Assembly (NCBI GenBank): GCA_030278955.1
Contig: JAOANR010000005.1
Coordinates: 1,717,431-1,781,430 of the forward strand
DNA from: Hygrophila difformis
Taxonomy: Eukaryota; Streptophyta; Magnoliopsida; Lamiales; Acanthaceae
Reading direction: 5' to 3'
DNA length: 64,000 nucleotides
Below are positions 17,243 through 49,862 of this stretch, piece by piece. Under the pieces are notes generated by a model, which saw only the letters and a program-made list of their open reading frames with translations, searched no databases and was not told the origin of the DNA. A program made the position numbers and the translations under genes. Position 1 is the first letter of the stretch, and every line of letters starts with the position of its first letter.

Positions 17243-17355
17243 GAAATTCGGAACCAACCAAAAAGAAGGAGCAGAAAAAGCAAGGAAAACCAGGTTCTTG
17301 GTTGGGAAAATTCCACAAATCTGAGAAATTATTTTCGGAATTTAAAGAAATTTAA
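17243..17355 (+). pseudogene. Relic of the 3' end of the pol reading frame (copy 1)
   Basis: From 17,243 the sequence aligns with the last 75 bases of the minus-strand pol frame and its flank (50,165 down to about 50,050): shared blocks are TTCGGAACCA, GGAAAACCAGGTTCTTGGTTG and AATTCCA, then GGCCCAATT/GGGCCCA further on. The open frame from 17,243 runs about 37 codons to TAA at 17,353-17,355 and is lysine-rich. It shows the non-autonomous unit derives from an Athila-like element by removal of gag-pol. The equivalent in copy 2 starts at 29,180. Confidence 0.6.
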
Positions 17356-17550
17356 GATCCGGAATAAATCTTGCAGATAAATGGAACTGACCCGACCTAA
17401 TTTTATGCAAGTAGATTATTTTAAATAATGGCCCAATGATTTGAATTTACTTGGACTGAAGTCATTCAGGACCAACTCAAATAAAAAGGACGCAGGTCCA
17501 ATATCACACTCGGGCCCAATTCGATGAAAATTTGAAAATTCAAAAAGTTT

Positions 17551-17955
17551 GTCGCGGAATGACCATTTTGTCGCGGAACAACGTTCCGCGACCAAGTGGA
17601 ACTCCGCGACAAAGTTCTCCATATCATCAACCCTTGTTTGTCCTTGTCGCGGAGTGATCATTTTGTCGCGATGCCCAGCATCGCGCCCATGTGCAAATTC
17701 CGCGACAAAATTATACTCATCCCTGAACTCTGCTTGTCGTTGTCGCGGAACATTTTGTCGCGGAGCATGACTCCGCGACAGAGTCCCTATTCCGCGACAC
17801 GGGCACACCACTCCATTCTTCCTTGCCATTTTGTCGCGGTACACTTTGTCGCGGTGCATGACTCCGCGACAAAGTCCCATATTCCGCGACACCTCTAATG
17901 TCGCCGAGCCTGGTCGCGTAACCCTGTTCCGCGACCATGGGCTAGGGTTCCGCGA
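17551..17955 (+). repeat. GTCGCGGA/TCCGCGAC repeat cluster before the internal promoter (copy 1)
   Basis: About 17 copies of the 8-mer GTCGCGGA or its inverse TCCGCGAC (and one-base variants) lie in both orientations at irregular 10-40 bp spacing. Several pairs are back to back, making local palindromes such as GCGGAACAACGTTCCGC. The cluster ends 12 bases before the internal TATA box. Comparable clusters precede the LTR TATA boxes and the minus-strand cassette. ORFs across it (for example 17,416-17,964 minus) only translate the repeats. It could be a transcription-factor array or a CG-methylation target. The second copy is 29,488-29,892, with one repeat changed (CGCGAAAAAG). Confidence 0.8.
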
Positions 17956-17967
17956 CCGGCCCATTAG

Positions 17968-17975
17968 TATTTAAA
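17968..17975 (+). promoter_or_regulatory. Internal promoter TATA box (copy 1)
   Basis: TATTTAAA lies in TTAGTATTTAAACCCC, followed by a CT-rich stretch typical of plant start regions (about 17,995-18,010) and by about 125 bases of leader before the ATG at 18,129. The minus-strand relative has TTAGTATTTATACCCC at the matching place (49,536-49,543). This gives the cargo gene a promoter separate from the LTR. Confidence 0.65.
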
Positions 17976-18128
17976 CCCCTTCCCCTCCCTCGTCTTCCCC
18001 ACGCATTCGGACTTAGAAAATTTTCGAAAAAACACTCTAGCACACACGAAACCTCTCCCGAAGCACACCACCGTGTTCTTCGCAACTTTTCCGACCATTT
18101 CCAAGGGAAACTCTGCCCGATTTTTGCC

Positions 18129-18175
18129 ATGGAACCACAACCCTCGTCTTCATCCCCGGAGCAAACCGAACCATG
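18129..18175 (+). CDS. Cargo gene, coding exon 1 (copy 1)
   Basis: ATG at 18,129 opens a 15-codon serine/proline/glutamate-rich leader (MEPQPSSSSPEQTEP) plus two bases of a Trp codon, ending at the donor ATG|GTAAGC. Joining to the acceptor at 19,563 completes TGG and enters the long frame of exon 2 with no shift, whereas exon 2 has no ATG of its own near its start. The minus-strand relative has a leader exon in the same place that also ends ..EPW and also has phase 2. I chose this start because it is the first ATG after the TATA box in frame with exon 2. Confidence 0.65.
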
Positions 18176-19563
18176 GTAAGCCTTTCTCCATTCTACTCTC
18201 GCGCACCCATTGCCCCTGTTTTCGCGAACCTAGGGATTTTTGGTGTTTGAGTTCTCGATATTATGTGAATGGGCCTCCTCATGGTTGTTTTCACTCAGTT
18301 GATTTTCAATTTTAGTGATTCTGTGTATTGGGCATGTATGGATTTCGATTCCCTGTTTTTATCGTTAATGGCCGAGTGTGGTGTTGGAGTTTGGTACTTT
18401 GGTTGGTTGATGCAAGGGCACAGATAGAAGTGTTAGGGGTTGTAGAAATTTTGATTCCATGAACCTCGGTTGTCTAGAGGATACGGGCATGATGGCTAGG
18501 GTTTGGCAGTGGTAGATTCCGCCATGGTTGTGGGTTTTGAGTTTTTAAGGTTCTTTTGCTTTTGTTTGTTCTAGTCTATATGCTCATGTTTTGTCTGCTT
18601 GATCTTGATTCCTCCTGGATTGTTGAAAAATCTTGAAAAAGTGAGAGTTGATGAACATAGGGATACTGTGAGAGTGTCATTATGTTATTAATTTTCTTGC
18701 TTATGAATGTCCTCCTCATTAAACATGAGCAGTGTGATTAATCTTATGTTCTTGTTTAAGTAGAGGCATGATCTTGTGTTTTTAACTTGCTATGTTCATG
18801 AGTATTGCATGCTGAGTTGATCATTTAATGGCGTTTCCTGTTTTGGTGTGTCTGTGTATGTGTGCAGCAAATTGAGGAAAGTGAGTGTTTGTATTGTTTT
18901 TGGCATGTCAGTGCACACCAATCCCCTTTCATCAGTGCACTTTTTCACTTAAAGACAAAATAGTTAGTAGGAATTTTGGTTGACAAAGTGTGTTTTTGGT
19001 TCCCAATGGAACTATGTAGTGTGAGTTAAGTAGCAGTATTTTTGCCACCTCAAACTGCTACTCTTTTTGCAAAATCCAAAATGGGACCACACATCCCACT
19101 TTTCATTAAATAAAATCAAGTTAACCTTTTCAAAAATTAAAAATAGTGTTTGCAATTTCTTGAATGTTTTAACTGTCCAATGACAGTCCAAACAATCCGG
19201 AAATAGTGAATCCATCCCGCCATGCCTCCATTGCACATTCCATTTTCGAGCTATCCATTCCATCATCATCATCTCATTCCATTTTCAACAAGTGCCTCGA
19301 GCTTGTTTAATAAAATTGGAAAAGCAACCTTTTTGGGCTCAATAGCCTACTAAAAAATTCTCTAAGTCCAATGACTTAGACTTTTTTAAATTAATTAATG
19401 GCATATGCCTTATAATAATGTTTTGAGTATTAATCAAATAAATCACATTTCGAGCAAAGCTCAAAATGTGAGGATGTTGATTTTTGGCTCGAAACTCAAA
19501 AAAAAAAAAAAAAAAAAATTACATAACAACTTGATTGGAATTAATACTTTCTATATTTTTCAG
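18176..19563 (+). other. Phase-2 intron of the cargo gene (copy 1)
   Basis: A 1,388-bp intron from GTAAGCC to TATATTTTTCAG. It is T-rich, as plant introns are. Its 3' half (about 18,960-19,330) aligns closely with the minus-strand intron at 45,340-45,690 (TTCCCAATGGAACT, GCAGTATTTT, GACAGTCCA, CATTGCACATTCC). Near its end is a hairpin with GTGAGGATGTTGA (19,444-19,480) and an A18-20 run. A 13-nt microexon (18,868-18,880) with good splice signals would break the frame and was not used. Confidence 0.65.
19444..19480 (+). other. Hairpin plus GTGAGGATGTTGA motif before exon 2 (copy 1)
   Basis: CACATTTCGAGC (19,444-19,455) pairs with GCTCAAAATGTG (19,459-19,470) with one mismatch and an AAA loop, running into GTGAGGATGTTGA (19,468-19,480). 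The acceptor of exon 2 is 83 bases downstream. The same arrangement precedes the F-box exon on the minus strand (45,188-45,226). The second copy is 31,381-31,417. Confidence 0.65.
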
Positions 19564-22500
19564 GAATGAATTAGTAATTAAGTCAGCTATTGGATTGCCC
19601 GATTGTACTCTGCATCAGGCAGCAATAGAAGCATCTGCAAACAGGACTCAGATTAAGAAGCTCAGGGAAGCTTTGGTAAGCGTGCACAGTGTTCCACTGG
19701 ACCAGCGTACTGAAGCTGAGCTAACATTGAGACCTGGTTGGGACGTAAAAATCCCCCCTGAAGATAGATCAACCGCTCTGACAAACATAGAAAGGGATTT
19801 CTCCCATCACATGCTGAAGTTTTGGGAACTAATGACAGACCATGCTCCGCATGATTCCATAATGACACCCGAAGTGCATTTGGAAAGAATCACGCTGAAG
19901 TTCCAAATACATACAGCTGTCTGGCAACGTCACCTAGAAGATGGAACAGTGGGAATCGATATCTCAAACTATGATATACTCATTCCTGACCAACCCATAG
20001 ACCCACAAGTGCGATTGCAGTTCGTGGAAAGACCTTTACCGGTAAGCCTGATACTGTCAAAGGGAGCCATTTCAATGTATGAAGCTTTCCCTTGCATTTG
20101 GAACCCGAGGTTATTTGATAACATGGGAATAGAAGAGCAGAGATGGGTGGCCAGGCAGGCTAAGCTAAGGCATCGGGAGATGAGTTACAACCTGCGCCAC
20201 AAACTGAGGAGAATTGAGGAGTTCAACACAGAAAGGAACTCCACCATGATAAACAAGTTTAGGGAAGCAATCAATGCAGCTCGAAAAGAATGGCACGACA
20301 TGACACTTCTGTGGGGGCAGGGCAAGGGTTTCATAACACAAGAAAGATTGGATGAAGGATTGACCTTGCCGGATGAGGATAATTTTGAGACAATTTTCAT
20401 AAACAAGCGGTTTGGCCAGACAAGACCAGCGGAAAAGGGAACTCAAGTGGACCCTGGATTTCCCGAGCACATCAGAGAACTAAGGGAAAAAGCCCTTTAT
20501 GAGGTGCAGCACCACAATTGGTCAGTACTGACCAAAAAGAAGGTGCAGCTCAGATTAATGACCGAGGCTGAAGCAAAGGAATATCTGACGTTTGACAAAG
20601 CACAGATGATGACCTATGTGACAGAAGAGTTAGAAAGAGACATGATCAACACCATGATGGAGCAATATAGGACCTCATATCTTGAACTCCTCATGGAGAT
20701 GGATAGAGAAGCCTTGAGGTATGGGAAGGAAGGAAACAAGACAAAGGTCATGCACTATGACCACAAAGTCAGGCGCCTGTTTTGCACACGGATTAAGGAG
20801 GCTTGGGAATTTAAACTGGTTCGGGTAACAAGTCAGACATTCGTGCATGATTATCTGAGATTTGCACATAAACTGTTTGGAACTCAAGAAGCCCAGGAAG
20901 ATCCAGAGGACCCAGATGCTGAGATTGATGCATACTTCTCCACCCCTCCTGAGGCCAACCCACAGCCTACCCAGCCAGCAGTACAAGCTTCGGCTTTGCC
21001 GCCTAGAGGGCAGACTGACGTGCAAGAAGTTGCTACGTCCGAGCCAGTGGCGCAGCAAGAAGCAGTCCGGACTCCAGTACAGATAGCTCAGACTGAAATG
21101 ACAACATCTGCTGTAGCACCTTCCACCACTAAGGCACCCATACAGCCCGAGAAAACCTCCACTACTGTTACATCTGAAGGTCAGCCAGCACCTCAACCGG
21201 GAACAAGGAGAAGGTTGGTGAAGTCTGCTGACAAAGATAAACCAGCAAGAGCTCCGGAAAAGAAAGTGGAGATCAAGGAACCTGAGCCAACTGTCAGGAA
21301 AGTGGTAGAGCCCACAGATCCCAAGGACAAAGGTAAAAAGCCGATGCCGCCACCACCCCCGAAAAAGAAGCACCAGGTGATATCCGATGCTGAGCTAGCC
21401 AGAAAAATGCACAATGATGAACTTGCATTAGCTGGTTTGCTGGATCAAGTAACAGGTGGTTCGGGAGTAGAGAAATTGACTGAAGAAGAACGCCTGGAAA
21501 TGGAAAAGAAAACTGCAGAGGAAGAGCAGATCAGAAAGAATATCCAGCAGACCAGAGACGAAGAAACTGCCAGGAAGATGCAGGCTGAGCTGGAAAGCAG
21601 GAAATCTGGAGAGGCTGAGCGGGGTAATGAGGAGGACTTCGAGCTGAAGATCACTGGAGAAGTGCAGGGGCGTGGTTTGAAGATCAAAGAAGAGCAACCA
21701 CCAGGATGGACTGGCCCCTCGATTCGTAGTGCCGAGACACTTCGGAAAGAATTGAGACAGAACATCAACGAACAGATTGAAACAAGAATTGATGCTGGAG
21801 AAAAGCCAAATCAAATCAAATATCAGACAGAAGTGGGCCAATTGATTGATCCCCTCGTGGGCACGGCCAGAATTGAAGAATTCATCACTCACGAAGGCCC
21901 GTCGCACCAACCTGAACAGTCAGAAGGACCACAAGACTCCATAGATCCGGTAGCACTGGACAAAATCTTGGAAAAGCAGCCAGGCGACCATCTCATGGCC
22001 TCTGCGCTTAAGGAAAAGGTTCAAGGAATTTTGACTGAAGCTGCAGATGGAAATAATTCGGAAGAAGAAGCTCGGCAGGAGGAGCAAGAATTCATGGACC
22101 AAATGGCGCCTATTTTCCAACGTCCAGTTGAACGAACTGCAAGAATTAGGGAGGAGGAGGAGGTATCAACTGATGTTGATGACCGTAATTTTCATGTAAC
22201 TACATCTTCTTTGCCTGTAAATTGTGAACTCAATACGATGAAACATGTAATTAAACAGGTTGAGGAGGAAGTCGGAGATGAAACAGCTCATGGAGAGCGA
22301 GAGCCAAGTCAGAGGGGAGATGACGCTGAACCAAGGGATGACCAGCCACAGGAGGGAGACGATCAAACAGACTGGCACACGAGCGACGACGAGTCCGTCG
22401 GGTCCATTCGACCAGTCGAGTATTGGTCTGAAAATACTGTAAGGCAAAGAATGGGCGTTTCAAAGGAATATGGGAAGAAAAAGCTGAGTGAAGAGCAGGT

Positions 22501-23890
22501 TCAGATCAAGTTCAATGGCAACAAAGAGAATGCAGAGAAGTATAAGAAGTTGCAGAAGATGATAGTGCCAGATAAAGGGTTCAGACCCGATGCGTTGTCG
22601 CACCCCACTGTTGAGACTTTCTACAGAAATCAAGAGTGGGGTAACTTCATGCTGCATCACGACGAAGATGGCTTCGTGGAACTAACAAAGGAATTCTTCT
22701 GCAACATTGATAAAGATGCCAGAACAACATGGATTCGTGGACAAGTGATTAACATTGCACCTGACTGGCTGAATCAGTTCTTCGGGACTCCAGATATCCG
22801 AAGTGAATTTCCCCCTGATGAGATCATGACAAAGAGAGCCAAAACGAGTGAATATGCGAAGTATGCAACCTTGGCTAACAGCATGACAAGCGTGACCGCC
22901 CCTGGGCACACATTCAATGCAAAATGGCTGCGGATACAGTTCATGCCAACTTATGAGTTCTACATGTCCAAGATCCGGCCCAATTCGCATCCGCACACCA
23001 CATCTGGAAATGTGCTAATGGGATTTGCAAGAATGTGGAGCTGGGCAAAACTAAATATAGGGAGGCATGTATTCGAGGTGATGATAACCCGGATAAAGGA
23101 TAGACAGGTGCTGTGCTATCCGAATCTGATTAGGAGAATCTGCATAGCTCAGGGAGTTGATTTGAGCGCGTTTGAGGGTGACACAGTGGTGAAAGTGAAC
23201 CCACCTATCAGTGTGCCAAGACTTCCCTTGTGTGAGAGTATCAAATATTCCCTTCCCCAACTGTTCGTCAGAGGAGATTCAGACGCTCAATCCTCTTTCA
23301 TATCGGGTGGGCAAGCATCAAGAAAACGAAAGAGGCAGCCCAAGACAAAGAAGGGAACACAGAACACCTGTGCTGATGCAGGACCTTCGAATGTTCAAGA
23401 AGAGCCCCCTGCGGACCAAGAACGGACTGAGATTCCAATTCCACCTCCGACTCAACCTCAACCTCAGACGCCTCCTCAAAGCCAGAACGTATCTCAGTTC
23501 CCTGCTGATTCCCAAAGGATTGAGATGGTGAGCAGAATGAGTCAATCTATGCTCGAGGGAATGAAATCCATGACTGATGTAATTTTGGCAAGCCAAGAGG
23601 GACAGCAGAAAAGGGAAGAAGAGGAGCGTGAGGAGCGAAGGAGGGAGAGAGAGGAAGAACGCCAAGAGCGTAGGAGAGAAAAGGAAGAGAAACGGAAGGA
23701 GAAGTTGGAGAAGGAAAGGAGAGACGAGGAATTCAGAATGATGATGCTAGAAAAAGAAGAGAAGAATCGAAAAATGGTGGAATCACTGATCCTCAGTCAA
23801 AATCAGATCCTGCAAACCTTACTCAAGAAGATCCCTGATGAATCTGGCTCCTCCAAGAAATCAGACGAGAAGAAAGATGGCGATCCCTGA
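19564..23890 (+). CDS. Cargo gene, exon 2: 1,441-codon ORF with putative plant transposon protein domain (copy 1)
   Basis: With exon 1 it gives a predicted protein of 1,457 residues. Function unknown. The N-terminal 450 residues are mostly helical and charged and not recognised. About 460-610 is a proline/threonine/glutamine-rich linker with a PPPPPPKKK run. About 650-990 is highly charged. About 1,010-1,220 resembles the 'putative plant transposon protein' domain found in ORFs of plant retroelements (FVELTKEFFCNID, then WIRGQVINIAPDWLNQFFG). A basic SRKRKRQPKTKK near 1,265 could be a nuclear signal. About 1,360-1,430 is a long Glu/Arg coiled coil. No zinc knuckle, protease or polymerase motif is present. 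The position, 3' of the pol relic, is that of the env-like ORF3 of Athila. The frame is intact, suggesting recent selection or recent insertion. Confidence 0.75.
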
Positions 23891-25538
23891 CTCCATCATT
23901 TCTGAGCTTAATTGTAAATATCATATAAGAGAATTTCAATTCATCCATGCAAGATAGATTTGATTGCAAATGAAATCTCTTGTAATTGATATAATTACTG
24001 CTTTCAGATTGGGATTTTGCAGCCCCAACAGCAATCTTTGTTTTTATGTGGTTCTTTTATTTCTGAAAAGATGTCTGACAGTCCAAGATGAATAAGTGAC
24101 TGTCAGGCCAAAAATTTGCTGTTGACATGCTCCGTATGTCAACAGTGTCTCCTTACTGCTTTCAATTAAATAACCAGCAAAAGTATGCATAAAGTTGCTC
24201 TAAATTCACATTTTGAATTTAGGCTTGTGATTAAATTTTCAAACCTTTAAATTGGGATAATATAATTAAGAACATGCATGACATGAATTCCTGAGGTTTT
24301 GAGCTATAAAAATTTAATGATGCGATCAGCTTATTGGGTAATAAATCTGCATGTTAGAGATTTTGATTGAATAAATTGTTAGAATTAAGCTTCGATTAAA
24401 TTTGAGAATATTGTATGACATGAATCAAACCAACCTTGTGAGATTTGAGCCATGAGTCATTTTCACTCATTCATTTTCTTTGATGTGTGAATCATTTTGA
24501 TTAAAGGAAACTAGAACTTGCAATTGGGACCGATTCAAGACCACGCCATATTCCCGAAATCGAGTATATGATCGAGGCACCTAGAAAACCCAATTTTTTG
24601 GCCTTCGTTTGAAATCCAAACCCAAAAATATTTCCCTTTAGGATTAACCAACTTGAGCCTATAAGCCTAATTTTTCTTTGAAGCCCTCTATATTATTCCT
24701 AGCCTTCTAAAAAGACCAAGAAAATCAAACCCAAGTATGCAAGGATGAATTCTATCAAGGCATTACAATTTTTTATCATCAATAAAAACTATAAATCGGT
24801 ATTCTATAAACCGATTCAAAAAAAAAAAAAAAAAAAAAAGAGAGTTGAATGTCAGTCAACACAAATAAATTGCAGATGACAAGCAATTAGACAATAGTCT
24901 AATGTCATGCAATAGAAAGAAAACCAAAAAGAGAGAAACATTGATGATCATAAATTTTAAATAAAAAAAAAAAATGCCAAGTTATGATAGAATTAATTCT
25001 TGCCACTTCCTAACCCAACAATTCCCTTTTCCCACCTAATGTTACAACCGTATGCCCCGTTATAACCCTTAAATAAGACCACGTGATCTTGATTTGAAGA
25101 AATGAGCCGGTGGCGAGTTGGTCTGATTGCAAGCATATGGGAGAATTTAATTAAAACTGATTATGAGCGTTCACTGACTGAACCCCAATTGAGAGTGAGT
25201 GATCTTTCCGATTCTCTTATAGGTGAGGCTCTGTTTCTTTAAGAATATTCATGTCATACCTTAATTCTAATTTTTAATCTTTGCATCTTTCAAACATGAT
25301 GTTCATGAAGGATTGATAATAATGTTTAATTTGTAGGCCCGATATAGTGAGCAAGTATCATTTCATTAAACACTGCAATCAAGGGAACTCAATGCTTGTA
25401 ATTTTTGATTGTCTTATCCCAATCCAAAAAGTATGTGATTTATGAAGCCACGAAAATGAATTGAATATGTAGAGTCCGTGTTCTTACGAACATTGACTCT
25501 GACTGCTCGGGGACGATCAGTATTAAATGTGAGGATGT
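23891..25538 (+). other. 3' non-coding region and polypurine-tract/LTR junction (copy 1)
   Basis: No ORF. The 1.65 kb aligns with the minus-strand element from 44,460 down to 42,798 (blocks GACAGTCCAAGATGAATAAG, AGGAAACTAGAACTTGCAAT, GATCAGTATTAAATGTGAGG), so it belongs to the family rather than to the cargo. It includes a poly-A run near 24,818. The end, AAATGTGAGGATGT before LTR 2 (TGATAATGG), should hold the plus-strand priming site, although it is only weakly purine-rich. The second copy is 35,827-37,475. Confidence 0.7.
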
Positions 25539-28500
25539 TGATAATGGCCAAAAATGACCATTATTTTCAATCCATTTCCGTGTCTTAAACGGGCATTTGA
25601 TCGCATTCCGGTCTGACATTAAGTAAGAAAGCAGTCGAATTGGATAAATTTATGCATAATTGTAAAAATAATAAGCTGGTGTGAAAAAGACATAAATATG
25701 TAATTTTACTACATATTTATGTTAGAAAAATCCAAAAACATGAGAAAAAGAAAAGGAAACAAAAAGATGGGAAAAAGATAGAAAAGCCCACAAAAAGAAT
25801 ATTTTCGGCCCATCCGGCCCAATCCAGCAGGCCCAGGAAGACCTTTGTCGCGGAAGCCCCTTGGCGCGATGCAGTGCTCCGCGACAAAGGCATGTTCCGC
25901 GACCAAGACGCACAAATGAAGAGGAGACCTGCCAAGCCCCTTGGCGCGATGACCTTTGTCGCGATGCAGTGCTCCGCGACAAAGGTCCATTCCGCGACCA
26001 AGATACATTTTTAGAGACACAAGACCCAGTCGAGAAGCTTTGCCACATGCAGTGTGTTCCGCGACCAAACTTGGTGCTCCGAGACAAAGCTGTGATGTGT
26101 GTGATGTCTTGAGACACAATGGGCTCAAATCAAGGCCCATGAGCTTAGGGTTTCCCCTCTATAAATATGAGGTGTTTCCTTTGAGCTAGAGGTTGGAAGA
26201 ATTTTAGAGAAATACTCACTCTTGAAGACAAGTGAGAAGTTCAGTAGTTAGTTTAGTTTAGGGTAGTTTAGTTAGATTTTCTTTTGTATTATGTAATTTA
26301 TGCACTAGTTAGAAGTAGTTTACTGCTCTTGGGTTAGACAGCCAGTTTTAAACCTTGTTTTTGTTCTAAACTTTTGTTTGAGGGTTTGTGGTACCCAAAC
26401 CATGGGTATGAACAGCACCGTTTAATAATATGGGAAAACATTCTCTTTTATTTTATTTTGTCTTTTCCGTGATGTGTGAAACAGCTAATAAGGAATATAT
26501 CAGATTAATGTTGGCGGGTATTCCCACACGGATAACTAGCTCGTGATCTGTATATTAATTACTAGTTGTTATTTTGCATGGTCCAGATAGTGGTCGGTGG
26601 AAGCCTTGGCGGTTCATCCCTCCGGGATTATAATAGCTGCTCAGCTGACTCCCATCCGGATACAGTTTTCTTTTCTTACTTTAATTTCAAACCTGAATCT
26701 GGAGCTGTAGTAATGTTAGATGATATATGCCAATGTCATCTAATGATTATTGCAGTAATAGAACATGTGGGTTTTTATCCAAATTCACAGACAGTGGAGT
26801 CTGAGATGACGGCGGCAACTGTCATTTGAGACATTCCACTGTCTAAAAATCATCCCACCTGAAATGATCAGGACCTGGATAGCAGATGTTTGCAGTCCGG
26901 ATCATCCTGATTATTTTTGTCATCTTTTTAGCCAAATAAATTCTTCTCATCTCTGGCTATTTCATCTCTGTGTTTCACATTCTGTCTAAACCCACCTTAT
27001 ATTTTGGGTTATTTTATTTTACACTTCTCTATAAATTTATGCATGATATTACTATGTAGATAGTGTGGTCATATTATTTTGGGATCCTTCCCTTGGACAT
27101 AGAAGTCTTGATCTAAGTCGGACGTTTCATATTAAATTTCCAACAAAAATTCCTTTATAAAATCCGGATCTGAGTAGGGGATAAATTCAACAGTTATGAC
27201 TAATTCATATCCGAATGGGGGTTGATTTTGGGAAATTAGAAGCAGAGTCAACGATTAGGTCTCACCTAGACTGAAAGGATCTGTGTTTTAATTGAGAGTC
27301 TAGTACCTGATAGGGAATGATTTTCAGATTTGTTATTTTCCAAAATTGCTGTTTGTTGGAAATCTTGTATTAAATATTACACTGAGTCAGATTCCACTTG
27401 GATTCCGATAAGGTGTGACAGATAATACTAGAGGAACAGCATTCAGGCCTTGGTTATTTTCTAAAGGTAGGGTTGAGTATTCTTTCAACTGCTATTTTTC
27501 TTCTGCCAAAGCCTATTTTTAAGTCCTGAGTGAGTGCATCCGGAACGAACTAATTTCATTAGTTCGTTTCATTAGTTTGTATCTCATAACCACCCGACGA
27601 GAAGTGAACACTGCGAGCGGTTCACCGAGAATAGGGAATTCTTGATCCACACCGAGTCATGCTGACTGGGGGCTTTCTTTTACTACCAGGGTCAAACTTT
27701 CAGAAACCTCCGAGTGATAGGATTTTAAATGCTTTCTTTACTGCTTTCTTTTAACTGCTTCCTTAGAGGTCACTCGGTTGTATTGAGAGTTGTGTAACTG
27801 CTACTAGGACTGAGAGTTAAGGGATAGTTCAGGGATTAATTAGAATCTTTGGGCGTGACATGGGGGAATGATAGTAGTACTTGACACTTCAATAAATGAT
27901 TTGTCAGGTGTTGCTTGTCCACCACAGATAAATGACACGCTCTGACGGGAGCAGTTGTGAGTCTGTGGTATCTTAGATTTTGCTGTCTTAAGAGCATGTA
28001 AACTCTTGCTGCAAGTACCTGTCTGTTAAAGGGAACACGATATAGAGAGCATGAGAATTAGCTAACTGAAGGATTATCCCAAACTAAGATCTGCGTATTA
28101 AAATGGAAGTTTAATTGTGTTTCATCTGAATCTTGTCCAATCTTTATTCTTTTCTTCCTGTTCCTTCTGTCACACTTTAAATCTGCTTTCTTAGATTAAT
28201 GATAGATGGGTTAGTATAATTTTAACCGCCTTCTTAGAACAATTTTATTGCTTTCTTAGATTAAATTTAATTCGCTTTCTAGAATAACTTTATCTGCTTT
28301 ATTTTGATTGCTTTCATAGCTTAGTTTAAATTATGTCAAGTAGTTGTTAGTCATTTCACAAACTTGATTCGAGTGACCGAGTGGAAAATCTTAGTAAATG
28401 ACGTGGGACCTGCTTCTATCGCACATCCTCCAGTGAACGATCCGGTCTTACTATAAATTACTGCAATTTTTGACACCGTGCGCTTTCGGGGGCACAGTTT

Positions 28501-28955
28501 CTTAACTACGAGCAATAAAAACATGACTACGTATAAATATATCCCTAATCACAACACCGCCATCATAAATTGGTTTCATTAAATAAAACTTAAACCAGGA
28601 TCATGATTTTTCGGAAAATACTCGTGTAGTGGGAGTCTGTCAAAAGTTTCATGGCAGGAAATCTCATGGCAAGAATTGATGAGAAGTATCATGGCATATT
28701 TGCCGGGGACCCTCAGTGTGACAGGCTGAAGGTCAACCCATCCCGGCTATGCCATGAGATTCGTCAACATTTCATGACAGAGAGGACCACAGCGCCATTT
28801 GAAACCGAAGCACCACGCTTGAGTAATAAAAAGACTAATAATCTTGATGTATCCCTAAACCCTTTCCCGTGAATCATAACGCTTTTCATTTAATAAATCT
28901 AACCTGGTATAATTCTAGCAAAAGCTCGTGTTAACGAAACTTGTCAAAAGTTTCA
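25539..28955 (+). repeat. LTR 2 (shared middle LTR)
   Basis: 3,417 bp, TGATAATGG..AAGTTTCA, serving as 3' LTR of the first unit and 5' LTR of the second. By eye it is a mosaic. In its upstream part it agrees with LTR 3 against LTR 1 (presence of the 107-bp block, CTCTGGC near 26,953, GCGAGCGG near 27,616). Downstream it agrees with LTR 1 against LTR 3 (TTTCTTAG near 28,191, GAGTGACC near 28,373, TGCTTCTA, ACGAGCAA, CATAACGC). The switch lies between about 27,616 and 28,191. TATA box at 26,160-26,168. Confidence 0.9.
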
Positions 28956-40400: not shown

Positions 40401-40892
40401 CAATTTTTGACACCGTGCGCTTTCGGGGGCACAGTTTCTTAACTACGAGAAATAAAAACATGACTACGTATAAATATATCCCTAATCACAACACCGCCAT
40501 CATAAATTGGTTTCATTAAATAAAACTTAAACCAGGATCATGATTTTTCGGAAAATACTCGTGTAGTGGGAGTCTGTCAAAAGTTTCATGGCAGGAAATC
40601 TCATGGCAAGAATTGATGAGAAGTATCATGGCATATTTGCCGGGGACCCTCAGTGTGACAGGCTGAAGGTCAACCCATCCCGGCTATGCCATGAGATTCG
40701 TCAACATTTCATGACAGAGAGGACCACAGCGCCATTTGAAACCGAAGCACCACGCTTGAGTAATAAAAAGACTAATAATCTTGATGTATCCCTAAACCCT
40801 TTCCCGTGAATCATAATGCTTTTCATTTAATAAATCTAACCTGGTATAATTCTAGCAAAAGCTCGTGTTAACGAAACTTGTCAAAAGTTTCA
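37476..40892 (+). repeat. LTR 3 (3' LTR of the array)
   Basis: 3,417 bp, TGATAATGG..AAGTTTCA, followed directly by the target duplication CCGTC. It has private bases in its last quarter (TTTCCTAG near 40,128, GAGTAACC near 40,310, TGCTACTA near 40,352, ACGAGAAA near 40,448, CATAATGC near 40,817) that LTRs 1 and 2 lack. TATA box at 38,097-38,105. Confidence 0.9.
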
Positions 40893-40897: not shown

Positions 40898-42797
40898 GAG
40901 ATACCATAAATTGTGTCACGAGCCTAGACCAGCGACATGGGTGCCTCGACAGATTTACGGAAATTTGGGCAGAGTTTCACCTTGTGTCACTAAGCAAAAG
41001 TTGTGTCGCTGACCGTGGGTCCGCGACAGGAGTTTAGCGACACAAGATTGCTCTGGAAATTTCTAAGTGTTTTGGTTCCCAGTCGCTAATCTGGAACTGT
41101 GTCGCGGGGCATGGACCGCGACAGGATGTCTAGCGACTGGGGTTTTCAAAATTAATACAGGGCATAATTTCCTGTCTCGGAATAAAAGTCTGCGACAAGG
41201 GTGTTCCGCGACAGGAGCCATGCAGAGCATAATAACAAGAGTTTGGTTCCTGGTCGCTAAGCAAGGTTGAGTCGAGGACCGTGGGTCCGCGACAGGGTGT
41301 TTAGCGACCAAGGGTTTTTGAATTATGAAGACAAGTGTCCTTAGACATCCATGTCGCGGAACAGCCTCCTGTCGATAAACGTGGCTTAGCGACAGGAGTC
41401 GGTTAGCGACATGGGTGGTTCAGGACCCAAGTCTGTAAAAGCAAAGTTGAACAGTAGCATGCAAACAGTGTGATCTTACCCTATTTCAGATCAAAAAGTG
41501 GTTTTAACCAAAATAACCAAACAAAAATTTAAATCTACCTAGAACATGCTGGAACAGAATTAAATCTACTCAAAACAGGATTTAAAATAAAGCAAAACCT
41601 AATCTGGGGTTTAACCACGCAGAAGCACACTACATATCCGAAAATAAGAGACAATAAGCAATAGGGGTTGAATGACCCAAATGAAAGGGAAGCAGTAAGA
41701 ATCCATGGGTTTATGAGACCCATTTCATGGTTTTGGGACACAACTTGGTGAATATTTTCCCATTTATTGAATAGTTTGTTAGTACCCATCATTTGGGTAA
41801 TACAAACCCTAAAAGCAAGCTTAACAATAAAAAATAAAACTGTGAACAGTGGCTACCTATGCTATTTAAAACAAGAACATAAATCAAAACTGATCTAAAC
41901 TAAGCTTAATGCAGAAATTAAATAATACAAAAAAAAGAAATAAACCTAAACTAAGAACTACCTAGAGAGATTCTCCAAATTGTGTCTTCAAGAGAATGAA
42001 TTTTCTAACCCTGAGCTCATGGGGATCACCTCATATTTATAGAAGTGGAACCCTAGGCCCATGGGCTTGATCTGAGGCCCACTGTGTCTCAAGACATCAC
42101 ACACATCACAACTTGTGGCGGAATCACCTTTGTGTCGCGGGACAGGGCTGCATGTGGCAAGGCTTCTCGACTGGGTCTTGTGTCTCTATTGGTGCGTCTG
42201 TGTCGCTATCCATGTCCGTGTCGCTAATACATGGACCGCGACCGGGGTTCCTCGACTGGGGCATGGCTTGGCCTCCAAGATGTTGGTGGCGCGGAACCTT
42301 GGTCGTGTCGCGGAACCATGGTCCTCGACCGGGGTTCCTCGACCGGATGTTCCCAGACAGGTCTCTTCTTTGTGTTGCATGCTGGGTCGCTAATCCCTCC
42401 TGTGTCGCGGAACCATGGTCCTCGACCGGGGTTCCTCGACCGGATGTTCCCAGACTGAGCTGAATGGGCCAGATGGGCCGAAGTTGTTCTTTTTGTGGGT
42501 TTTTCTATCTTTTCCCATCTTTTTGTATTTTTGTAGGCTTGTTTATTCTTTTGCCCATCTTTTTGTTTCCTTTTTCTTTTCTTTTCTTTTTCTCATGTTT
42601 TTGGATTTTTCCAACATAAATGTGTAATAAAATTACATATTTATGCATTATTCATACCAGCTTAATATTCTTACAATTGTGCATAAATCAGTCCAATTCA
42701 ACTGCTTTCTTATTTATTATAAGACCGGAATGCGATCAAATGCCCGTTTTAGACACGAAAATGGATTGAAAATAATGGTCGTTTCTGGCCATTATCA
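40898..42797 (-). repeat. Minus-strand Athila LTR, 5' (U3/R) part
   Basis: On the minus strand the LTR starts TGATAATGGCC at 42,797 and is homologous to the plus LTRs (ATTTTCAATCCATTT, GGGCATTTGATCGCATTCCG, AATCCAAAAACATGAGAAAA). It contains a CG-rich GTCGC repeat cluster upstream of its TATA box (42,113-42,470) and a second, larger cluster downstream of it (about 40,893-41,420) with no counterpart in the plus LTRs. The LTR continues at 13,708 on the other side of the array. ORFs here (for example 42,113-42,463) translate the repeats only. Confidence 0.85.
42033..42041 (-). promoter_or_regulatory. TATA box of the minus-strand LTR
   Basis: On the minus strand TATAAATAT in TTCTATAAATATGAGGTG, matching the plus LTR box and context. 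Transcription would run toward lower coordinates. Confidence 0.65.
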
Positions 42798-44461
42798 ACA
42801 TCCTCACATTTAATACTGATCATCCCCGAGCAGTCAGAGTCAATGTTCCTAAGAACACGGACTCTACATGTTCAATTCATTTTCGTGGCTTCAAAAATTA
42901 CATTCTTTTTGGATTGGGATAAGACAATCAAAAACTACAAGTATTAAGTTCCATTGATTGCAGTGTTTGATGAAATGATACTTGCTCACTATATCGGGCT
43001 TACAAATCAAACATTATTATCAATCCTTCATGAACATCATGTTTGAAAGATGCAAAGATTAAAAATCAGAATTAAGGTATGACACGAACATGTTTGCAAT
43101 CGAACAGAGCCTCACATATAAGAGAATCGGAAAATTTACTCATTCTCAAATGGGGTTTGATTATGAACGCTCAAAATCAAATTTAATTAAATTATCCCAT
43201 AAGCTTGCAATCAGACCAACTCGCCACCGGCTCATTTCTTCAAATCAAGATCATGAGGTCTTATTCAAGGGGTATAACGGGGCATACGGTTGTAATATTA
43301 GGCAGGAAAGGGAATTTATTGGGCTAAAAGTGGCAAGACTTTATTCTATCATTAACTTGGCATTTTTATTTAAAATTCATGATCACCAATGTATATCTTC
43401 TTTCTTTCTTTTGCTTTTCTTTTGCATGACATTAGACTAAGTCTAATTTGCTTTGTCATTTGCAATTTATTTTTGTTGAATTGAATTCAACATTTTTCTT
43501 CTCCCTTTTTTTTGATCGGATTTTGGAATACCGATTAATGAGTTGATGATCATAAATTGTAATGCCTTGATAAAATATATTCTTGCACACTTGGGTTTTA
43601 ATTTCTTGGTCTTTTTAAAAGGCTAGGGATAATATAGAGGGCTTCAAAGAAAAATTAGGCTTAAGGCTCAAATTGGTTAATCCTAAGGGGAAAATATTTT
43701 TGGTTTGGAATTCAAACGAATGCCAAAAATTTGGGTTTTTCTAGGTGCCTCGATCATATGCCCGATTTCGGGAATATGGCATGGTCTTGAATCGGTCTCA
43801 ATTGCAAGTTCTAGTTTCCTTTAATCAAAATGATTAACACATCAAAGAAAATAAATGAGTAAAAGTGACTCATGGCTCAAATCTCACAAGGTTGGGTTGA
43901 TTCATGTCATACAGTATTCTCAAATTTAATCAGAGCTTAATTCTAACAATTTATTCAATCGAAATATCTAACATGCAGATTTATTACCCAATAAGCTGAT
44001 CGCATCATTAAATTTTTATAGCTCAAAACCTTAGGAATTCATTTCATGCATGTTCTCAATTATATTATCCCAATTTAAAAGTTTGAAAATTTAATCACAA
44101 GCCTAAATTCAACATGTGAATTTAGAGCAGGTTTATGCATATTTTTGCTGGTTATTTAATTTAAAGCAGTAAAGAAGCACTGCTGACATACGGAGCATGT
44201 CAACAGCATATTTTTGGCCTGACAGTCACTTATTCATCTTGGACTGTCAGACATCTTTTCAAAGGAAGCAAATAAAGATTGTTGCAGATCTCAATCTTGA
44301 GTTCGATTTGTGGAAAGCGATAAAGTACAATAATTTCAAGGGATTCCTATGCAGTTAGCGTAAACCTGCATGCAAAAAGAGGAAATCCCTTATATGATGC
44401 CGATACTAGGGCTTAAAAAAAACTAGAGCATACTAAGATTCATTCCTCCTTCCTCCTTTTC
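42798..44461 (-). other. 3' non-coding region of the minus-strand element
   Basis: No credible ORF. It aligns along its length with 23,891-25,538 of the plus-strand element. The junction motif GTGAGGATGTTGA occupies 42,795-42,807 on the minus strand. Confidence 0.7.
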
Positions 44462-45122
44462 TCAGAACATGTATCTGAGCCAGTGGACGTAGCTGGTCAG
44501 ATCACAGCGCAGGCACCAGCCGTTGTGGTCTCTCAGGGGTTCATGCATCCTTCTGCAGAAGACTCGGGGTGGTTGCCCTGCAAACAAGTAGGGGGCATGA
44601 TTGTCTGCCATCCACGAGAGGGTGTTGGTGGATGTGTAGTTGAAGACCTCTCGATCGGTCACCATTCTCTCTATCATTGCGATCCCCTGATTGACCTGGC
44701 CTTCGTCTAACTTGCTCATAAGCATCAGTCCGCAGGTGAAGATTGATGCTTTATGATTGTCTTCGATGCCTGGCCGTAGCCATTCGTAGGCTTGCTCTTC
44801 ATCCCCTTCTGTGAATGCCAGGAGTGCTGGAACAATTTGGAGGTTAAAGTTTCCAGCCTCAGTGCATGTGTTCAGAAATCTTTCTTTCTGCTGTCGTATC
44901 CTCCCCTGTCACTGCCTCACCCTAGCCGTATCCAACTCGCATCGCTTGTAAACGATGGCGAGGTTTCTTGCGTTTCTAAGCTTCCGACATGTTTCTTGAG
45001 CAGTGAACACTTCCCTGATCTCATCCTCTCCTATTCTGGAGAGGATCTCACCTAGGAGCTCTTCTGGCAGGTCCAGCAGATGGGTTCCTCCGGGCACGGG
45101 GTCTGGGATTGGAAGATTTCCC
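44462..45122 (-). pseudogene. F-box protein, second exon, carried by the retrotransposon (one in-frame stop)
   Basis: After the acceptor TCTTTTCAG the frame encodes an F-box motif (LLDLPEELLGEILSRIGEDE, then CRKLRNARNLAIVYKRCELD) and, further on, a helical-repeat-like region (EQAYEWLRPGIEDNHKASIF, then GLMLMSKLDEGQVNQGIAMI) and a C-terminal Cys-containing segment ending ..HWLRYMF. The arrangement resembles the small plant F-box family typified by Arabidopsis At2g35280. F-box proteins are SCF ubiquitin-ligase substrate adaptors. The frame is continuous for 219 codons except for one TGA at 44,909-44,911, about 70 codons in. There is no ATG near the exon start, so translation needs exon 1 at 49,316-49,383, which joins in frame (phase 2). 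It sits in the same place as the 1,441-codon exon of the plus-strand units. Confidence 0.75.
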
Positions 45123-45775
45123 CTGAAAAGATAAGAAGGGATGAATCCAATTTTTATAATTTCTCAGAAATTATTCAAGTTTAGAAACCAACATCCTCAC
45201 ATTTAGAGTTTTGCTCTAAATGTGAGATTATTAAGTTTCTGACTTGAATTTTAATTTAAAGCATGGGTAAAATAGATTTTTATGAAAAGATAGGGGTCAT
45301 TGGGCCCCTATATATTTTTAATGGGCCATCGGGCCCAAAAGTTTGATTTTCCAATTTTTATTAAACAAGTGCGGGACACTTGTTGAAAATGGGATGAGAT
45401 GGATGGAAGAGGTGGAATGCTCGAATTTAGGAATGTGCAATGGAGCGTGGCACAATGGATTTGCTATTTCTGGACTGCCTGGACTGTCTTGGACAGTTAA
45501 AGCATTCCCAAAAATTTGCAAACCCTATTTTTAAAGGGTTGACTTGTTTTATTTAAGGAAGGTGGGATGTGAGTGGTCCCATTTTGAATTTTTGAAAAGG
45601 ATAGCAGTTGGGTGACGAAAATACTGCTATTTACTCACACTACAGTTCCATTGGGAACAAAAAGAACACAAGTCAAATATTAAATTTATTCACTCTTTTT
45701 GTCTTTTTCCAAAAGGTCACTTTAATTAAAAAGTGGAAGTTTTTCATTGGGTGTTTGTACTATGTTTCCATAAAC
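45123..45775 (-). other. Intron of the F-box cargo gene, 3' part, with hairpin
   Basis: Homologous to the 3' half of the plus-strand cargo intron (compare 45,340-45,690 with 18,990-19,330). It carries a perfect 13-bp stem, CTCACATTTAGAG (45,196-45,208) with CTCTAAATGTGAG (45,214-45,226), adjoining GTGAGGATGTTGG (minus strand, 45,188-45,200), 66 bases before the acceptor. The intron continues at 48,865-49,315 beyond a solo LTR. Without that insert it would be about 1.1 kb. Confidence 0.65.
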
Positions 45776-48700
45776 TGTAACACCCCGAAATTCATCCTCA
45801 TAAGGTTTCAGAATGTTACCGCCACACTTGTCAGTCAGGCTCGCCCTTTGGCTAACTTAATTGACAAGTGATACGGCTAAATATAAATTTTTGTAGTATG
45901 AACTTTAAAAATAATTGCCAATTTTATAAAATATAGACATAAGAAAATTTAAAGTACTTAATACCAGAGTCATTGTTCTTTCTCATGCGGAAGCATAAAC
46001 TAAAGGCAATGTATATGACATTATTATTTAAAAGTACGTGGTTCCTTAAAGCAACAATCTTTTGATGAAAGGTAATCCCATCCCCAAATGCTCATGTCAT
46101 GAGATGCAGTTCATATGTCAGCTCCAATATCTGTAAAAAGATAACACAACAACTTTTTATCAGTACAATGGTACTGAGTAAGTCAACCCACTCCACTTCA
46201 AGAAGTGGGTTTTAAAATAGTGGTTGACACTCAAAAAATAATAATAATAATTTTCACTTTTTCTTTTAAAATGATCACACACATTACCTTTAACAAAATA
46301 AATAACTTTCATTCTTACCATTGTAGCAACTATGCACAAGAGGACACCATTTTCCATATATCATATCATATCATATCATATCGATCATAAGTCATGATCA
46401 GCATGCAACGGACTCATATACAGACACACTCCGGAGCCTCGGGTAACCCATCATGGATACACCCAAGAGTATAGACTCATACATGCAATAACGCCGTTTT
46501 GGCACAATTTATCAACAATGCCGTCTTGGCATATTTAGAGGGGGAGGCCCCGCAAGACACATCCCTAGTGCATTAGCCCTCTATCAAGTATGGCATCTTA
46601 CTCAAGTTAATAGTGCACAATGGATTTAAAAGAGTTTTCCACCATTTTCCACATAATATCCTCTTTAAAAGAGTTTTCAACAATCTCAAGGGAGTAACCT
46701 CATCACAAGGGCATTCAATAATGCCAAATATCATTTCAAAATTTAACTCCCATATCAATATCTCATAAATATAGAAATATCATTTCATGGATCTCAAAAT
46801 CCAACAATTTCTCATTTGGACCAAAAATCAAGTCCAACATCGCAGTTTACGCCAAGTCAGTTTAAAAATTCATATGAAAGGCGATTGCTATGAAATTTAA
46901 ACTGTAGATACTCAACACATAGTTGAACAAGTTTTATGTTTTACACTTTTCAAAATAAGGTATGGAAACATTTCAAAAATTGAGTTCTTTACAGAACATG
47001 TATTCTGCCAGAAATTCAATAGTGACTCTATAATTTTCCACAGGTTTTAAAAATAGTAATTCGCGACCAAAAATTCTAAAATTTTACCACAAGGTAGATA
47101 ACACATAGATAAATATTTTCATGAAGAAACCATTTGGCTTTGAGACACTTAAGACCTTCAAAAATGTGGATTTCAGAAAACACTATCATTTCTTAGATTT
47201 CAACAAAAAGAGATTTCGACCTTTCGATAAAGCGGATCCCATAACTTTTTCATACGATTTCTAAAAATTATAAAAGTTTTCAGAAATATACTCAACTCAA
47301 TAAGGAACAAGTTTTATGAAGGAACCTTTGAGGGATATTGTACCAAAATAGTTTAAAAAGATAGATCTTTACGTAAAGGAAAAACTGACAGATTTTGGTA
47401 TAATGTGGGAATTCAAATTTTGTATTCTTAAAACATGGATTGGAATCTCCAAAACTTAAAGTAGAGAGTGTTAACTTACTGAATTGATGTATAAGAGCAA
47501 GGAGATTCAAAGATAATGGCCGTTATAACACAAGATTCGCACCACAAATTACGGGTTTCGCTGAAATTCAACAAATAGAGGGAAATCAATTTATAGTATA
47601 AAAATAAAAAGATTTAGATCTCTAAGATACAAGTTTCAAGGATGATATCTTACTAACCAAGTGTTGAGAAGAGTTAGAACTCTTAGAATGATGAAGGTTG
47701 CCAAGCCTACAAAACTCCACAATCCTTAAGATATGCTCACTATGTGGGAGAACTTTAAAGAATAAAATGGCTAGTGAATTTGGCTAATGAGATGGATGAG
47801 ATTGTTGTGTTTGAAGGCTAGAAACTCCCTCTATTTATAGGCTAAGATTTGAACAATTGAACATGACACATTGTGAGAGTGATTACAACCTCACCAATCA
47901 TCCAATTAAGTGTGTCTTGAGCAATAATGGTTAGAGTATTTGTATCCACTCATTTGGTCCTTATAGCCTAACAAAGAGGCTATTAATTTGGGAGGCTATT
48001 AATTTTATCCATCATGTTGTCTATTAACATAGGCTTGCCTATTATGGAGGCTATTAATCTTGGTGGGTTCAAGAGATAATTGATCACCTTTCTTTGCTAG
48101 CCATTCATCCAAGACACTTGTTAATCATGTTGATTTTTCATCTATTTGTTTAGGAAGAAAATTTCTTGCAATTGCTTTTAACCTTATATTTGTGTAAGTA
48201 GTGTATCATGAAAATGATTGAAGTATTAGCTTGTCTAGAAAAATCATTATTCTTGCCATTATTTAGTGGCATGCATTTATACTCAATGAGTTGGATATGA
48301 TAATATAATATTTATTTATTTATTTCAAGTATTGTATTTATATTAATGTGCTTTCAAAAAGATAATAATAATATACTTGCATGGTTTTATTTTATTCATA
48401 ACAATACTCAAACCACAAAGTCTTCATGTCATCATCAAATAAAAATTATAATTTATGAATATATTTTCTTATATATAAAAGTTAATTCTCATAGATTCAC
48501 ATAAAAACTCATACTTTTATTTTTATAAAAATTTATTCCATAATGAATACCAAAGTACTTAAAATATTCACATACTATCCTCATAAAATTTTTCAAGACC
48601 AATGTGTATATATATAAAAACTTATATATATAATTTAAACAATAGATTTAAAAAATATTCCATAAACTATATAATTCTATTACCCTTGATATTGAAATTC

Positions 48701-48859
48701 ATATTTCTTTTGGAAAAGACAAATTTACATATATAGTTTTTCAAGTGTTGTTTTGTAGAAAAAAATCAATATACTAATTCTTTAAGCAAGTGATTAAATA
48801 TTTAATAAAAGTCTCTTTAGTGAATTACAATTATTTCGGGTAATTTCTATGGTATTACA
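45776..48859 (-). mobile_element. Solo LTR inserted in the F-box intron
   Basis: A 3,084-bp segment with termini TGTAACACC and GGTATTACA, flanked by a perfect 5-bp duplication TAAAC (45,771-45,775 and 48,860-48,864). On the minus strand it starts TGTAATACCATAG and has a TATA box TATAAATAG (47,831-47,839) followed by a leader-like stretch, which fixes the orientation. There is no primer site, internal region or ORF of note, so it is best read as a solo LTR left by recombination. The terminal sequence style resembles Ty3/gypsy chromovirus LTRs. Lineage not certain. Confidence 0.75.
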
Positions 48860-48864
48860 TAAAC

Positions 48865-49315
48865 AAACAGACATTTATTCCCCAGGAGATCCCTGACATG
48901 TAAGCAAGTATGCCGAAAGATCTTCCACCTTGAATGCCTCAAACCAACACTACAGAAGCATTCTCTCAAAATCACAAGCAAAATTAAACAAAAATCAAAC
49001 ACACAACCCTAGAACTCAAGAACAGAAGAACCAATAACATCATGGTGTTCAAAACAACACCCCAATATTCATCGGTTTTAGTCTTTCAAGTTTTAAACTT
49101 CCCAAAATTTTACTCATGACAGTTTTAAAAATGGGTTTTTAAGGGCTTTTTAAAAAGATTTCAAAACAAGGTTCGAGACTGAGAGCACTTAAAACCTTAA
49201 AAATAGAGAAGACAAGTGCACACAAGCTACATTATGTTCTTCTCAAAACCAAATAAAGGCAAAAGAACACAAAAGCTAGGAAGAGCCCTGAACAGGAGGA
49301 AAAGTAGGCTTCTAC
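48865..49315 (-). other. Intron of the F-box cargo gene, 5' part
   Basis: Begins on the minus strand with the donor CAGG|GTAGAAGCC. The corresponding plus-strand donor is ATG|GTAAGCC, and the following CT-rich sequence is weakly similar. No ORF of note. Confidence 0.5.
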
Positions 49316-49383
49316 CCTGCCCTCCATGGTTCAGGTCTGGGTAGAGGTCCCAGATTTGGAAGGATCCTGTAGAATCGGTCCAT
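49316..49383 (-). CDS. Leader exon of the F-box cargo gene
   Basis: ATG at 49,383 opens MDRFYRILPNLGPLPRPEPW plus two further codons and two bases, ending at the donor GCAGG|GTAGAA. Joining to 45,122 restores the frame of the F-box exon. The plus-strand leader is homologous: shared upstream CACCACCGTGTTCTTCGCA, similar spacing from the TATA box, and the same ..EPW end. Longer ORFs here (49,227-49,856) run through the CG-rich repeats and are not credible. Confidence 0.55.
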
Positions 49384-49535
49384 AGTCTCCCCTTGAAAAA
49401 GGAGTGTTTGAGTGCGAAGAACACGGTGGTGTTCGTTCGGTAGAGAGAAGATGGAACAGGAGAAGATGAAAAGATGGAGGTTGGATGAAACTGACGTGAG
49501 TGCAGGGAAAGGAGGTGTGGAGGGGGGGGGGGGGG

Positions 49536-49543
49536 TATAAATA
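49536..49543 (-). promoter_or_regulatory. Internal promoter TATA box of the minus-strand element
   Basis: On the minus strand TATTTATA in TTAGTATTTATACCCC, next to a run of 14 C (G14 on the plus strand, 49,522-49,535), then about 150 bases to the leader ATG. It matches the plus-strand box at 17,968 in position and context. Confidence 0.6.
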
Positions 49544-49554
49544 CTAAAAACACT

Positions 49555-49862
49555 GGTCGCGGAAACCAGACCGTGTCGCGGAACAGGGTTCCTCGACCAG
49601 GGCATAGCGACATTACACGAGTCGTAGAATCTGAGTCCGGTCGCGGAGACATGGTCTGCGACAGGAGTTTCGCGACCGAGTTCTGGCAGGGAAAAGTCAA
49701 CGGGGAAAGGTGTCGCGGAGTGGAGGGCCAGTCGCGGACCCATGGACCGCGACAGATGTTCCGCGACATCGAAAGGGTAACAAGTGCGACTGTGGCGCGG
49801 GACCAGGCCTGGTCGCGGAGCATTGCTTCGCGACACAGTGGTTGGTTCCGCGACACGAGTTT
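49555..49862 (-). repeat. CG-rich GTCGCGGA/CCGCGAC cluster of the minus-strand element
   Basis: About a dozen GTCGCGG / CCGCGAC units in both orientations, upstream of the internal TATA box, at the same place as the plus-strand cluster. The spacers between units have diverged far more than the units themselves. Confidence 0.75.

Follow-up and report, generated by a model that had tools for sequence, protein, structure and literature searches.

Why plant long terminal repeat (LTR) retrotransposons keep extra genes downstream of pol is an open question. It is raised by a stretch of 64,000 nucleotides (nt) of the Hygrophila difformis genome (C11:1717431-1781430 of the 915-Mb assembly), referred to here as the window, in which a plus-strand retrotransposon array and a minus-strand retrotransposon carry a two-exon gene with a common control region, leader and intron end, and with unrelated second exons. 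The original prediction read this as a cargo platform downstream of pol that had taken up different last exons. The best explanation of the whole, which we consider highly probable, is that these are two related Athila-like Ty3 families with a common two-exon gene downstream of the place of pol, and that exon 2 of this gene was exchanged. That a whole last exon has been swapped while the leader and intron tail before it stayed constant is well supported for this genome, and it suggests that mobile elements can exchange whole cargo exons. The predicted difference in last exons stood, with two cargoes found; an open-ended platform proved too broad a description, as only these two were met in 40 of 40 sampled places. 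Hundreds of copies, with one post-pol gene in two unrelated versions behind the same control region, allow one to ask what each of the parts is needed for.

Sequence comparison of the two elements

The compared parts of the two elements are as follows.

17243..17550, plus: post-pol block common to both elements, earlier called the pol tail (alignment, shuffles)
17551..17956, plus: GTCGCGG/CCGCGAC repeat cluster (site spacing ~95 nt; similar units in the LTR)
17968..17975, plus: TATTTAAA box, the TATA box of the plus unit
18129..18175, plus: leader coding exon, copy 1 (47 nt, donor GTAAGC, phase 2)
18176..19563, plus: phase-2 intron, copy 1 (3' half common to the minus element)
19564..23890, plus: exon 2, copy 1 (1,441 codons after the split codon; Transposase_32, PF20167, at residues 1025-1200)
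23920..25536, plus: 3' region and polypurine tract (PPT) common to the minus element (alignment)
50165..52713, minus: pol with reverse transcriptase (RT), RNase H and integrase (C-terminus lost at 50168-50165)
49536..49854, minus: GTCGCGG cluster and TATTTATA box
49316..49383, minus: leader coding exon (68 nt, phase 2)
45123..49315, minus: intron, with a nested element inside
44462..45122, minus: exon 2, F-box then TPR_27, with one in-frame TGA
42803..44398, minus: 3' region (alignment)

Each pair of blocks was tested against dinucleotide shuffles, with 200 trials each (60 for exon 2 against exon 2). The post-pol sequence (17240-17594 against 50168-49810) matched at 78%, with no shuffle of 200 reaching its score, and the same result was obtained for the stretch from the cluster to the ATG, in which the GTCGCGG repeats, the TATA box and the 5' untranslated region (5'UTR) aligned in the same order. 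The 3' half of the intron (18951-19483 against 45706-45185) matched at 75% (0/200), giving a common intron tail of ~550 nt that extends up to 19,483. Alignment beyond chance also held for the stretch of the leader exon and for the final ~80 nt of the intron (2/200 shuffles each). The alignments and shuffles thereby bore out the predicted order of post-pol sequence, cluster, TATA box and leader.

The two second exons compared at chance level (56 of 60 shuffles reached the score) and belong to different Pfam families, in agreement with the claim that they are unrelated. Homology ended at exon 2 and resumed ~30 nt (plus) or 63 nt (minus) past the exon-2 stop; the region downstream (23920-25545 against 44398-42791) matched at 87%, with 0/200 shuffles for the 3'UTR. 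Because of this block pattern, the exchanged piece can be identified as exon 2 itself, with its limits in the intron end and just past the stop codon. Both predicted joins were in phase 2, so that the leader is in frame with either exon as had been claimed.

Genome-wide survey of the second exons

The genome was searched for further copies of leader and intron, and two different second exons were found. In the Transposase_32 exon, the first 447 codons form an exchangeable N-terminal domain (N-domain), of which the window carries the A version. A DNA search with 17243-18500 gave 3,703 candidates, of which 40 were scored, and 20 of the 38 copies outside the window were fetched. All 20 had the same layout from the primer binding site (PBS) to the leader; 10 carried version A, 9 carried version B and one was interrupted in the intron, L045 being untypable as A or B. 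The search with the F-box exon gave 1,905 candidates; each of the 40 that were scored had an identity of 94% or more across 657-661 of 661 bases, and ten were fetched with 2.3 kb upstream.

A motif of the common intron tail occurred at 877 places in the genome (control, 0). We read 600 nt behind 40 of 100 listed places, 20 of them with unusual motif variants and 20 taken in order. The next exon was the Transposase_32 N-domain or the F-box exon in 40/40 sampled places, some only 71-77% identical, and the expected acceptor and exon start were found in 38 of the 40. Taken in genome order, the first 26 places all lie on C1 and comprise 12 B, 5 A and 9 F-box exons. Diverged F-box exons (72-86% DNA identity) stood behind the same intron-tail motif in L075, L081, L088, L094, L095 and L097.

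With up to 2 mismatches allowed, a motif behind exon 2 was found at 2,710 places (control, 0). The listed places on C1 were 96 for the intron tail and 61 for the 3' motif; 28 of the former had one of the latter on their own strand no more than 9 kb away. The distance between the two motifs was 4.79-4.87 kb in 17 pairs, 1.12-1.17 kb in 8, and 2.9, 4.6 and 6.9 kb in the other three; the single 6.9-kb span (C1:76228300 to 76221385, minus) is longer than either cargo class. At 12 C1 3'-motif places without a nearby intron-tail match, we found nine Transposase_32-like C-termini (five matched at the nucleotide level, four recognised by eye in the translation), one F-box exon and two rearranged sequences. 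No third cargo was seen in the 40 intron-tail places and these 12 places reached from the 3' end. For the two cargoes found, a single replacement suffices, and since both families are internally diverse they do not resemble a frequently reloaded cassette. In L104 and L105, which are 99.7% alike, a fragment of the LTR start takes the place of exon 2 before the 3' motif.

Second-exon proteins and selection

The transposon-protein-like domain predicted in the 1,441-codon open reading frame (ORF) of the plus element was confirmed as Transposase_32 (48.1 bits, above the cut-off of 45). In the minus exon of 219 codons, F-box PF00646 scored 20.4 bits against a cut-off of 20.5, and TPR_27 scored 33.7 bits, above its cut-off of 27. 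The predicted F-box gene appears to be an F-box/TPR ORF, of which the window copy carries an in-frame TGA. This position is tryptophan in 9/10 fetched F-box copies, the tenth (L058) being frameshifted before it. The ORF is fully open in 7/10 copies; L053 and L057 have stops, the latter as its first full codon with the frame kept, and L058 is the frameshifted one. The TPR part of the F-box exon and the Transposase_32 exon had no match in the protein set searched, which is apparently poor in plant proteins, and the TPR part matched no solved structure.

Nonsynonymous (dN) and synonymous (dS) divergence in the F-box exon were 0.019 and 0.129 (28 pairs, 8 sequences), with L057, L058 and L061 left out, as their match was not gap-free from 1 to 661. 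Over the first ~100 codons, dN was 0.14 and dS 0.75 (55 pairs, 11 sequences, one frameshifted, L088). On these ratios, the F-box ORF shows purifying selection. The window copy differed from three of the ten sampled forms by a synonymous divergence above 1, and because selection has kept the F-box over so large a synonymous divergence, it can be argued that it has a role in the life of the element. The F-box protein also gives a way to ask how transposons might exploit protein degradation in the host.

Within the Transposase_32 family, version B is 44-46% identical in protein to A over the first 447 codons and 92-96% over the remainder (five copies, two identical). Version B is bounded at about 19,350 (intron) and 20,905 (exon). 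Nonsynonymous and synonymous differences per site (pN and pS) between the A and B N-domains were 0.36-0.37 and 0.77-0.78, again in the direction of purifying selection.

Leader, intron and splicing

Leaders were compared in 20 Transposase_32 and 9 F-box copies, the stretch of L053 stopping short of the leader. In 20/20 Transposase_32 copies the leader has a coding length of 47, 50 or 53 nt, and in 9/9 F-box copies of 68 nt. All 29 lengths are 2 modulo 3, which keeps phase 2 despite insertions and deletions, and all 29 are followed by a GT donor; one F-box leader (L061) contains a stop. The leader is short, yet its reading frame is guarded. The acceptor AG is kept in 19/19 Transposase_32 copies that reach it and in 9/10 F-box copies, L059 having CAC.

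Two intron-less genomic copies, L119 and L120 (95% identical over 260 nt), carry the 5'UTR, leader and exon 2 contiguously and in frame as ...KQTEPWNALVVHSG... Because they join the leader to exon 2 exactly as predicted, they support the splice of the Transposase_32 type. These copies point to splicing of the post-pol intron and to a return of spliced RNA, as a DNA copy, to the genome. Within the sequence tests made, none of the outcomes named in advance as refuting the prediction turned up: the leader stretch and intron tail align beyond chance, genome copies differ in their second exon, and the predicted junction exists in these two Transposase_32 copies. In L119, the cluster and TATA box precede the leader; the L120 stretch does not extend that far. 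A wider pattern for the F-box junction was tried and rejected, as its two places were ordinary unspliced acceptors and its reversed control gave 202.

Pol and the post-pol junction

The block common to both elements had been taken for the tail of pol. It is not pol: the pol of four sampled F-box copies ends at a stop of its own, and the block begins 174-188 nt after that. Compared with these four copies, 343-357 nt are missing from the minus element of the window; the ends of the gap share a 4-nt CAGA microhomology, and the loss fuses pol to the post-pol block. The missing ~350 nt were also considered as a spliced intron; the upstream end reads CCAG|ATGGG. Because a GT donor is absent there, a microhomology deletion is more likely.

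The pol C-terminus was present in 9/10 fetched F-box copies and in 0/20 fetched Transposase_32 copies; the idea that F-box copies are pol-less was rejected on the former count. Twelve of the top 40 pol matches were the same loci as top-40 F-box matches, 2.2-2.3 kb apart. The pol-to-F-box distance in the window is 5.0 kb, owing to the nested element, a 3,084-nt TGTAATACC...GTGTTACA element (48859-45776, minus) with target site duplication (TSD) GTTTA that lies within the minus-element intron.

Promoter-like region and hairpins

The TATA box was kept in 20/20 Transposase_32 copies and in 8/9 F-box copies with the leader in hand. The window holds 65 exact GTCGCGG/CCGCGAC sites against ~2 expected, and the site arrays are similar in the internal region 17551-17956 and in the LTR (25847-26079). 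A period of ~95 nt was weak in the autocorrelation of the internal cluster, where 0.35 at 92 nt stood against next values of 0.31-0.32; in the LTR it was clearer, with 0.44 at 95 nt. The period rests chiefly on site positions and BLAST between cluster and LTR. From the retention of the TATA box and the recurrence of the GTCGCGG units in the LTR, we infer internal promoter activity.

Hairpins followed by AATGTGAGGATGTTG were located before the exon-2 acceptor and before an acceptor-like site behind pol (17159-17196, 19444-19479 and, on the minus strand, 45228-45189). The two plus-strand features are:

17159..17242, plus: hairpin, AATGTGAGGATGTTG and acceptor-like TTTATCTGTCTTGCAG, preceding the common post-pol block
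19444..19479, plus: hairpin and AATGTGAGGATGTTG close to the intron end

Without the hairpin, the AATGTGAGGATGTTG 15-mer marks the PPT-LTR border at 25526-25540 and at 42810 on the minus strand. Hairpin and 15-mer may together act as a splice or priming signal. The acceptor-like TTTATCTGTCTTGCAG occurred at 1,095 places at up to 2 mismatches (control, 0).

Proposed mechanism and alternative explanations

Exon 2 would have been exchanged by recombination between element RNAs during reverse transcription (template switching), with switch sites in the intron end and just past the stop codon. The same process could also have exchanged the first 447 codons of the Transposase_32 exon. RNA might start at the LTR, from the internal promoter or from each of them, and with GTCGCGG units in common the two would be able to respond jointly. 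The sampled Transposase_32 elements, which lack pol, could be moved in trans by pol-bearing relatives, and the putative F-box protein might recruit the host SCF ubiquitin ligase in favour of the element. An unlikely extension of this scheme is a divided system, in which one element type supplies pol and an F-box protein, the other, without pol, contributes the Transposase_32 protein, and both are under the control of the common promoter, leader and splice module, which would also be the crossover point for trading exons and domains.

Several results weigh against our reading. The 5' halves of the two introns in the window were unalignable beyond chance (35/200 shuffles reached the score), so that of the homologous intron of the original prediction the 3' half stands and the 5' half does not. 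With up to 3 mismatches allowed, the leader-exon 2 junction pattern had six places and its reversed control four; accepted places were only the two with matching sequence on either side (leader and B exon), both of which were read. No spliced F-box copy was found genome-wide with two patterns. The promoter-like region is present in L119, which places the start of the copied RNA upstream of the internal TATA box, probably at the LTR; the internal promoter is therefore a candidate. The dS of the F-box exon (0.129) exceeds the divergence of the neighbouring intron tail, which differs at 3.7% of sites (0.037) in the same eight sequences; because of this excess, methylation-driven change or recombination may distort the ratios.

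The observation on L119 fits an account that we regard as quite possible, in which the leader belongs to an env-like spliced RNA that starts at the LTR, and the GTCGCGG/TATA region is 5'UTR and has no promoter function of its own. The conserved acceptor-like TTTATCTGTCTTGCAG upstream of the common block and the spliced env-like RNA of barley Bagy2 (PMC7264820) also fit it, whereas the near-complete retention of the TATA box in both families and the similar repeat units in the LTR speak for a promoter of its own. If both ORFs, F-box and Transposase_32, had followed the leader in an ancestor and each family had then lost one of them, the same two-way pattern with common flanks would be expected, and one of the 28 C1 spans (6.9 kb) does exceed the Transposase_32 class. 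This loss is nevertheless improbable, as no trace of one ORF was detected in the other (exon 2 at chance; no F-box match in the long plus ORF at E up to 1) and the C1 distances fall at 4.79-4.87 kb in 17, at 1.12-1.17 kb in 8 and elsewhere in 3 of the 28 pairs. That the two proteins are very diverged relatives, with no exchange at all, is scarcely credible: they share place and phase, but differ in Pfam family and in length (1,441 against 219 codons), and their nucleotide similarity does not rise above shuffles.

Comparison with known retrotransposons

Athila elements have no chromodomain after the integrase. The last 82 amino acids of pol in L115 (one copy) gave no chromodomain match; weak integrase C-terminal matches and one other were all below cut-off. 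The minus-element pol has RT, RNase H and integrase in Ty3/gypsy order, and the profile search found a single RNase H region in its ORF. Absence of a second RNase H characterises Athila and separates it from Tat (PMC6317226). Judged from sequence features, both window elements look Athila-type.

The exchange is a variant of a known Athila theme, the additional ORF (aORF). Athila-lineage Ty3 elements with a sense aORF after pol include Athila4, Calypso, Bagy2 and Cyclops, and splicing has been reported for Bagy2 (PMC7264820). They share with the elements described here the LTR, the PBS type, a pol without a second RNase H and a long post-pol region with a sense ORF; different here are the separate leader exon and the exchangeable second exon, of which one genome holds two unrelated versions. 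In sunflower Athila 14, a 3' aORF of 487 amino acids matches Transposase_32 (PMC11728184). It likewise places PF20167 in a sense ORF on the 3' side of an Athila element, but is far shorter than the 1,441 codons here, and the word 'intron' is absent from the main text of that report. Transposase_32 has been called related to Athila ORF-1 (PMC11728184), a domain (PF03078) present in 16% of Athila elements (PMC6317226). The latter is a recurring extra-ORF domain of Athila; the search with the plus exon 2 at E up to 1 did not return PF03078. Ogre is an LTR retrotransposon with an intron that is spliced from part of its transcripts (PMC6317226). It shares with our elements an intron inside an LTR retrotransposon, which here, unlike in Ogre, sits in the post-pol gene.

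LOGL4-like ORFs in Athila have reportedly been described by Steinbauerova et al. In that case, as in the capture of an m6A demethylase domain, a host-type gene or domain was fixed in a Ty3 element; we know of no exchange of the last exon behind a constant leader and intron tail in either. The demethylase domain is reported from Ty3 elements of orchids (PMC9289625). For Onsen, members of one LTR retrotransposon family have been documented to recombine with each other (PMC5668417). Among titles and abstract openings of mostly non-subscription literature, we found no report of a retrotransposon F-box aORF, of exon swapping or of a leader-intron cassette in Athila.

Layout of the window and further features

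The plus-strand units form a single insertion with a tandem LTR-internal-LTR-internal-LTR arrangement and TSD CCGTC at both ends (self-BLAST and boundary reading). It is nested in the 3' LTR of the minus element, which matches on either side of the array. The remaining features are as follows.

13704-13708 and 40893-40897: TSD CCGTC of the plus array (boundary reading)
13709..17018, plus: LTR1 of the plus array (self-BLAST, boundary reading; 5' edge ~1 base short; internal 107-nt gap relative to LTR2)
17019..17036, plus: PBS TGGCGCCGTTGCCGGGGA, directly after LTR1; second occurrence at 28956, after LTR2
25537..28955, plus: LTR2, common to both tandem units
30066..30112, plus: leader exon, copy 2
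31500..35826, plus: exon 2, copy 2
37474..40892, plus: LTR3
40898..42802, minus: 3' LTR of the minus element, first part; resumes at 13703-11113 beyond the plus array

Pairwise, the plus LTRs differ at 5, 7 and 9 of 3,308-3,415 compared sites, and because the three differ at so few sites the array is young. The 5' LTR of the minus element was not found within the window. The PBS TGGCGCCGTTGCCGGGGA is presumably of the tRNA-Asp type. A figure legend in PMC1142308 supports this assignment for the motif.

The pol sequence had no match in viral contigs and the plasmid search gave no match; the PBS search in viral contigs returned 24 matches. A long interspersed nuclear element (LINE)-type ORF with zf-RVT and RVT_3 (10039-11187, minus) adjoins the outer end of the LTR of the minus element. 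Elsewhere in the window, a tandem repeat at 2905-4136 has copies ~274 nt apart that are 80-89% alike, and an imperfect palindrome of ~770 nt (87%) occupies 53491-54258.

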